This document shows, piece by piece, positions 11,900 to 12,585 of a DNA stretch of 48,097 nucleotides (its first letter is position 1; each line of letters begins with the position of its first letter). The stretch covers positions 1-48,097 of the forward strand of contig JAFQJE010000028.1 in the NCBI GenBank assembly GCA_017415145.1, given 5' to 3'. The DNA comes from Clostridia bacterium. Lineage in GTDB: Bacteria > Bacillota > Clostridia > UBA1381 > UBA9506. The notes under the pieces were generated by a model. The model was not told where the DNA came from and did not search any database. It saw nothing but the letters and a program-made list of their open reading frames with translations. The translations under genes were made by a program, and so were the position numbers.

Positions 11900-12037
11900 T
11901 TTTCTCTCCGATTTTTTTCTTTCAGTTCTATTATTGACGAAATATAATTTTAAATACAAGCATTTAAATTTAAAAATGGAAAAAATTGAAAAAATAACGT
12001 TGAAACATTTTGTCAATGAAACGAAACATAAAAAGAC

Positions 12038-12066
12038 TTGTAATTTAATGAAATTTATGGTATATT
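12038..12066 (+). promoter_or_regulatory. Promoter of the structured RNA and SLOG-like gene
   Basis: TTGTAA (12038-12043), 17-nt spacer, TATATT (12061-12066) preceded by TGG (extended -10). The predicted start, about 12072, coincides with the first base of the long stem, which supports a dedicated RNA. Confidence 0.7.
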
Positions 12067-12070
12067 GGTT

Positions 12071-12222
12071 TTGCAGTCAACAGTTAAATATTTGTGCCAA
12101 TATGGGGTTACACTGTCAAAAAGTGTAGCTCTGATTCAACGACCCATGTTGGTACAAACTGTTGACTGCAAGTCGGACGCTACGCTTTTATGGTGCGTTG
12201 CTCCGGCTTCGCACCTTTTTTT
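12071..12222 (+). ncRNA. Candidate structured leader RNA with alternative 3' hairpins
   Basis: About 150 nt. P1: 15 perfect pairs (12071-12085 with 12157-12171). A 7-nt bulge AAATATT follows on the 5' side, then P2: 14 pairs including two G-U (12093-12106 with 12143-12156). The apical region holds a 6-bp hairpin P3 (12109-12114 with 12122-12127) and about 15 unpaired bases. Downstream, 12170-12177 can pair with 12202-12209 (8 bp), but the same 3' bases form the loop of a terminator stem (12192-12197 with 12210-12215) followed by seven T. The two folds exclude each other, as in an expression platform. It lies 66 nt before the SLOG-like gene. It matches no RNA family I know (not 6S, SRP, tmRNA, T-box or a familiar riboswitch). 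Confidence 0.6.
12192..12222 (+). terminator. Rho-independent terminator at the end of the structured RNA
   Basis: Stem GGTGCG/CGCACC with a 12-nt loop and seven T (12216-12222). The loop bases are those that pair upstream in the alternative fold. Confidence 0.75.
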
Positions 12223-12288
12223 ATTTTCCGGAAAAAAATAATTCGTGCAAACAAATAAATTTTTTAAAAAAGAAACGAGGAATTTATT

Positions 12289-12585
12289 ATGGTTTGTTGT
12301 TTTATGAACTTTCACGAACAAGAAAATGCAAAAGATTTAAAAAAACACTTTGATGGAGAGATAGACAATGCAATTTCCCGTGGGTGCACCACGTTCGTTA
12401 CAGGAAAAAGGTATCCCGAGGACGAGCTTTTTGCCGAGAGGCTTCTTGCCGCTGCAAAGGAATATCCTGATAAGGATATTAGGCTTGTCTTTGCAAATTC
12501 CGAACTTAAATCCGACGAAGAATTAGAAAAATATTTTATTAACATAGCTGATTGGGAAATATATAGCTATTATGTTGAATATTAA
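12289..12585 (+). CDS. Short SLOG-like (DUF1273/YpsA-type) protein
   Basis: A 98-residue protein with GAGG eight bases before ATG. It resembles the front half of DUF1273/YpsA proteins: an N-terminal CCF strand, a helix ending IDNAISRGCTTFVTG, then ERLLAAAKEYPDKDIRLVF and a final IADWEIYSYYVEY. Full-length relatives (about 170-190 residues) read TGHRP at the start and GMAxGxD after the second strand; here these are NFHEQ and TGKRYPED, so the presumed nucleotide-binding residues are altered and the C-terminal part is absent. SLOG proteins are thought to bind nucleotide-like ligands. It may be a reduced functional form or a degenerate relative. It follows a structured RNA with a terminator. Confidence 0.55.
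   Translation: MVCCFMNFHEQENAKDLKKHFDGEIDNAISRGCTTFVTGKRYPEDELFAERLLAAAKEYPDKDIRLVFANSELKSDEELEKYFINIADWEIYSYYVEY

Follow-up and report, generated by a model that had tools for sequence, protein, structure and literature searches.

What does the structured RNA that lies upstream of a short SLOG-like gene in a Clostridia genome do, and is it confined to that gene? The window, that is, the whole stretch of 48,097 nucleotides analysed here, comes from Clostridia bacterium (UBA1381; UBA9506) and corresponds to positions 1-48,097 of the forward strand of contig JAFQJE010000028.1 (assembly GCA_017415145.1). An earlier note on this DNA, made from the letters alone, had described a promoter, a 15-bp stem, a 14-bp stem with G-U pairs and a small hairpin, followed by a terminator with seven Ts and, 66 nt further on, a gene. 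We recovered all of these by reading and folding the sequence, with the T tract at 12216-12222 and the ORF starting at 12289. The elements of the leader are as follows.

12038-12066, + strand: promoter read in the sequence, with -35 TTGTAA (12038-12043), a 17-nt spacer and -10 TATATT (12061-12066)
12072-12085, + strand: 5' arm of P1 and predicted transcript start, pairing with 12157-12170 in the fold (P1 has 15 bp if 12071/12171 is counted)
12086-12092, + strand: A-rich one-sided bulge AAATATT between P1 and P2
12093-12106, + strand: 5' arm of P2, pairing with 12143-12156 in the fold (14 bp with G-U pairs)
12107-12114, + strand: segment U, the 5' arm of the inner hairpin P3, from the fold and from U:X covariation (columns A16:A33)
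12119-12136, + strand: segment X, whose 5' half (12122-12129) forms P3 with U and which as a whole can pair instead with D
12143-12170, + strand: 3' arms of P2 (12143-12156) and P1 (12157-12170), from the fold
12171-12189, + strand: segment D, pairing with X or, through 12171-12185, with 12195-12208 as an antiterminator
12192-12215, + strand: intrinsic terminator hairpin T5':T3', from fold energy and covariation
12216-12222, + strand: T7 tract of the terminator, read in the sequence
12277-12281, + strand: likely ribosome-binding site GAGGA, read in the sequence
12289-12585, + strand: gene for a reduced YpsA/SLOG-like protein of 98 aa, probably the target of the regulation, from the ORF, hhalign and the ortholog in a sister genome

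The region 12069-12224 folds far more stably than shuffled versions of it: its minimum free energy is -69.9 kcal/mol, while shuffles average -35.9 (z -8.5), and none of 200 shuffles was as good. At its 3' end, two mutually exclusive states had been proposed in the earlier note, and these were borne out: bases 12201-12208 either pair with 12171-12177, as part of a larger antiterminator hairpin (12171-12208, with -18.0 kcal/mol), or become loop bases of the terminator at 12192-12215 (-14.0 kcal/mol), each hairpin excluding the other. What that note overlooked is a second conserved alternative pairing, in which X (12119-12136) is complementary to D (12171-12189) over 18 bp (-22.9 kcal/mol). The leader thus contains two competitions, that of U (in P3) and D for X, and that of X and T5' for D.

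A BLAST search with the window RNA found a paralog in its own genome and copies in genomes G002, G008 and G012; a match in G021 spans only 25 bases and was left out of the count. A covariance model, R1, built from three of the copies found by BLAST, had matches in 14 of 20 genomes of the family and in 54 of 95 genomes of the order, representing 23 of its 27 genera. With a broader covariance model, R2, matches were obtained in at least 91 genomes of a class-wide draw of 391 (at least 23%; 52 of 223 genera), a count that is a lower bound with seven candidates scored per genome. When 150 candidates were scored, single genomes carried up to 23 copies, the window genome carried five, and three other Clostridia genomes had none. 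A phylum-wide draw of 299 genomes (E 1e-5, ten candidates scored per genome) matched the window's own genome only, indicating that the model is specific and that the family is limited to part of the Clostridia. The records recovered by a pattern scan were metagenome-assembled genomes labelled uncultured Monoglobus, uncultured Clostridia or Oscillospiraceae; two further pattern matches, in Marinobacter, were taken as chance. Some copies stand in tandem, two or three in a row, and every one of these has a promoter and a terminator to itself (L058 in G008:C9, L030 in G008:C16 and L140 in G036:C59). The RNA is a member of a large family, apparently not yet described, that is widespread in gut Clostridia.

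The earlier note knew of no RNA family matching this architecture and proposed a comparison with Rfam, and none emerged either for the window RNA or for the 36 relatives scanned. At the gathering threshold, nothing in Rfam 15 matches the window, and at an E-value threshold the interval 12030-12300 gave chance-level matches only. Among 20 further loci searched at the gathering threshold, the sole match was a separate c-di-GMP-I riboswitch, and among 16 class-wide loci searched at an E-value threshold there were scattered chance-level matches, with only a separate tRNA reaching the gathering score. The c-di-GMP-I riboswitch (RF01051, 61.6 bits) lies at L112:1343-1422 (G034:C29), a few hundred bases from a family copy and on the opposite strand. 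Like the family described here, c-di-GMP-I is a multi-copy leader class in Clostridia, but it has another fold and its Rfam model matches none of the family's RNAs.

We found no description of the family in the main texts of open papers on RNA discovery. PMC8040213 reports 3161 uncharacterised RNA candidates, which could include fragments of the family. A published candidate with a similar context is the SLH motif (Stav et al. 2019, PMC6429828), for which 80 examples are reported, in Clostridia and other hosts including Synergistaceae and Negativicutes, about 60% of them before genes for SLH surface proteins. As described there, this riboswitch candidate is also a leader found in Clostridia, upstream of SLH surface-protein genes and without a known ligand; however, SLH accounts for only 4 of 91 downstream proteins in our family. 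The SLH motif could be related to the family.

The earlier note had called for a covariation test in homologues, and P1, the inner hairpin, the terminator and the antiterminator are all supported by it. Since the P1 and P2 arms are too variable for a full-length MAFFT/RNAalifold alignment, we used covariance models and anchored alignments. In the order-wide anchored alignment of 129 copies, average-product-corrected mutual information was compared with column shuffles, which ignore phylogeny except through an identity filter. The strongest covariation is that of the terminator pair B68:B89, with six pair types and 99% of copies paired (100% in a divergent set of 50 sequences below 70% identity). 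The antiterminator pair B46:B68 (D:T5') takes six canonical pair types and scores 0.349 against a shuffle maximum of 0.164, a maximum also exceeded by P3 (A16:A33, 0.346) and by X:D (A43:B42, 0.197). The terminator and antiterminator pairs share the same T5' base, and D:T5' and T5':T3' both covary, supporting the idea that they are exclusive. In the divergent set, four D:T5' pairs (B46:B68, B47:B67, B42:B72 and B44:B70), two X:D pairs (A43:B42 and A35:B48) and the P3 pair A16:A33 were above permutation, and several other X:D columns showed no individual covariation above permutation.

The two P1 arms of one copy pair at -19.8 kcal/mol, compared to -9.7 when an arm is combined with those of other copies and -10.4 with those of other copies in the same genome; both P1 and P2 vary greatly among the copies of one genome and at orthologous loci, with their pairing kept. 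For X:D, the average energy is -19.1 kcal/mol when both strands come from one copy and -16.3 when D is taken from another copy of the same genome. An AATA motif (AAUA in the bulge) occurs within nt 10-45 in 80% of copies, against 36% in shuffles, and an AAAAA run in 75%. Outside D and the terminator, few columns exceed 90% identity, in an alignment that is uncertain at the variable stems. Metabolite aptamers are usually more conserved than this part of the RNA, so that its modest conservation leaves room for a classical metabolite aptamer without making a strong case for one. P1 and P2 have mean lengths of 15.0 and 15.1 bp; we rejected this equality as proof of a hinge, since the lengths of the two stems correlate only weakly (Spearman 0.25).

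Sequence comparison and covariation show the helices, the competition between antiterminator and terminator and the complementarity of X and D, and also where the copies lie relative to genes and how the family is distributed. From these, we consider it probable that the RNA attenuates transcription in cis: as a riboswitch-like orphan leader, representing a new RNA family, it would determine whether RNA polymerase halts ahead of the gene that follows. The competition would be among five segments, U, X, D, T5' and T3'. By default, P3, P2 and P1 would fold first, after which D would either invade X from the unpaired 3' half of X or capture T5'. If X:D (18 bp) forms, D cannot hold T5', the T5':T3' terminator would fold and transcription would stop; if X is kept by U, D would capture T5' as the antiterminator and the SLOG-like gene would be transcribed. 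A signal favouring X:D would then turn the gene off. P1, P2 and the A-rich bulge would be the scaffold that holds U and X, and presumably carry the sensing site. In summed energies, X:D plus terminator lies on average about 9 kcal/mol below P3 plus antiterminator, a figure that does not include a pseudoknot penalty, and this gap could be bridged by a signal or by the order in which the segments are synthesised. A point against this model is the geometry of X:D, a pseudoknot across about 28 bp of P1 and P2 that can form only with a bend at the bulge or with stretched linkers. We infer that such a switch works in living cells, that it has this direction and that its trigger is a diffusible ligand rather than a protein or an RNA.

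The genomic context of the copies is consistent with a role in cis. A -10 hexamer lies just 5' of P1 in 150 of 159 copies, with an extended TG in 107. Among the 134 copies with enough sequence for an ORF test (heuristic calls, ORFs of at least 40 codons), 91 (68%) are followed by a ribosome-binding site and an ORF within 130 nt of the terminator, at a median distance of 28 nt, against a background of 22% at random positions and 32% on the divergent side. About one third of the copies have no codirectional gene in this test. Two such stand-alone copies are in the window genome, L211 (G000:C9:11362-11522) and L212 (G000:C17:10456-10618), with nothing codirectional behind the terminator. A division into two sequence types, leader and stand-alone, was rejected, since an ORF follows 58% of copies with a GCTC-type X and 76% of those with a GCTT-type, which is no clean split. 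A Pfam analysis of the 91 downstream proteins gave 40 families in all, and among the 25 listed are BspA-type LRR_5 (16 proteins), copper amine oxidase N (5), YpsA (5) and SLH (4), together with DUF6273, CHAP, RCC1, HTH, lectins and dockerins. Several unannotated microprotein families also recur downstream.

The gene in the window had been read as encoding a reduced SLOG-like protein, and its resemblance to YpsA/SLOG holds in a profile-profile comparison, while the 98-aa protein has no direct match in Pfam. Against the YpsA-like proteins that follow other copies of the family, hhalign gave a probability of 95.4% with an E-value of 1.6e-8 (for a single comparison) over 68 columns. As in YpsA/SLOG (PF06908), the protein has a CCF-GHR-like start and a central TFxTG-like motif, but it is truncated to 98 aa and GHR is replaced by N-F/L-H-E. 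At the syntenic locus of the sister genome G002, the neighbouring genes are kept, and the protein is 88% identical and the RNA 58%. A short SLOG-like gene follows most copies in the window's genus. On the 3' side of the paralogous SLOG gene there is a 184-aa ORF (L002:2096-2650, G000:C25), whose C-terminal part, we presume, recalls DUF6883-type domains.

The earlier note had proposed a test for conserved placement of the RNA before SLOG genes. The placement just upstream of genes stood, but SLOG is only one recurrent target and not the defining partner of the family. A leader specific to SLOG and acting only in cis was rejected, because elsewhere the majority of genes behind the RNA are of other kinds; in relatives, most leaders stand ahead of genes for surface proteins or for other small proteins. 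Homologues away from SLOG genes, which that note would have taken as a sign of an independent small RNA, do occur, but most of them still precede another gene and so are no argument for a small RNA that is wholly independent.

Alternatively, the family might consist chiefly of stable small RNAs that function independently, each under a promoter and a terminator of its own, the downstream genes being incidental or served by occasional read-through. The promoter directly at P1, the full terminator in nearly every copy, the third of copies without a codirectional gene (two of them in the window genome) and the tandem arrays all fit such an RNA; the 68% of copies with a ribosome-binding site and ORF at a tight median distance, compared to 22% at random positions, do not, and a purely structural small RNA needs no antiterminator that covaries with the 5' arm of its terminator. 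We regard this as unlikely. It is also improbable, in our judgement, that the RNA is an attenuator controlled by a protein or by a further RNA, for instance by stand-alone copies whose X or D pairs in trans with a leader, rather than by a small ligand. The low sequence conservation of the putative sensor, the coexistence of stand-alone copies with leaders and the still fairly stable cross-copy X:D pairing within a genome (-16.3 kcal/mol) speak for it, but X forms its more stable duplex with the D of the same copy, compared to the D of other copies, and the P1 arms differ so strongly among copies that cross-pairing is disfavoured.

We give very little weight to the idea that the RNA is a MITE- or REP-like non-autonomous mobile element, with inverted repeats that would merely resemble RNA stems. 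Such an element would account for the many dispersed copies per genome and for some tandem arrays, but not for strongly diverged copies that keep their pairing, for syntenic orthologous copies or for a consistent orientation relative to genes, promoter and terminator; in addition, the queries used found no related sequence in viral contigs, phages or plasmids. A phage, plasmid or viral origin was rejected, as two RNAs, the DNA pattern and the protein had no matches there. The order of promoter, structured RNA, terminator and small ORF also recalls an RNA-antitoxin/toxin pair (type III toxin-antitoxin-like) with the short SLOG protein as toxin. This hardly seems credible, as the downstream genes belong to many unrelated families, large surface proteins included, the RNA is a single long hairpin and not a repeat array, and no ToxN/CptN/TenpN-like family turned up, either for the short SLOG-like protein or in the list of 25 out of 40 families of downstream proteins.

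The attenuator reading relates the RNA to the SAM-I, preQ1 and trp-leader platforms, which likewise have an exclusive antiterminator and terminator, an upstream segment that sequesters the antiterminator strand, and a position directly before genes. Here, in contrast, five segments compete, X:D forms a pseudoknot across a long two-part hairpin, conservation of the sensor is weak, and many copies are stand-alone or in tandem. Conditional terminators in leaders are a known mode of regulation; for this particular family, no entry was found in Rfam and no description in the open papers searched. On a wider reading, which we put forward tentatively and would not favour at present, the family would be a widespread, unnamed orphan riboswitch class that responds to a general signal and, by a two-step strand exchange, coordinates surface, SLOG and microprotein genes through up to about 20 units per genome.

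If confirmed, the family would be among the more abundant undescribed cis-regulatory RNAs of gut Clostridia (at least 23% of the 391 genomes sampled), defining a regulon of surface, SLOG and microprotein genes without a known regulator and offering a shared control signal for many small proteins to which no function is assigned. It would also be a compact system for mutating and testing two strand-exchange decisions that follow one another.

Three groups of small proteins recur behind the RNA. A microprotein family of about 37-59 residues (for example MEETNYKELYYSLSQTVADVIEKLTEKQIELEELYI) lies directly 3' of it in several genera, at loci L058, L051, L053, L067, L129, L140, L073 and L203. A second small-protein family (MNIKLELLRNYISDF...ADTTAIQMLSEIQ...) recurs 3' of the RNA at L021, L059, L052, L081, L082, L105 and L136, and a cysteine-rich small protein (MIIDITGIELIPGN.GKDCPGNGE...CCCDECNYMCCC) follows it in different genomes, at L195, L201 and L204.
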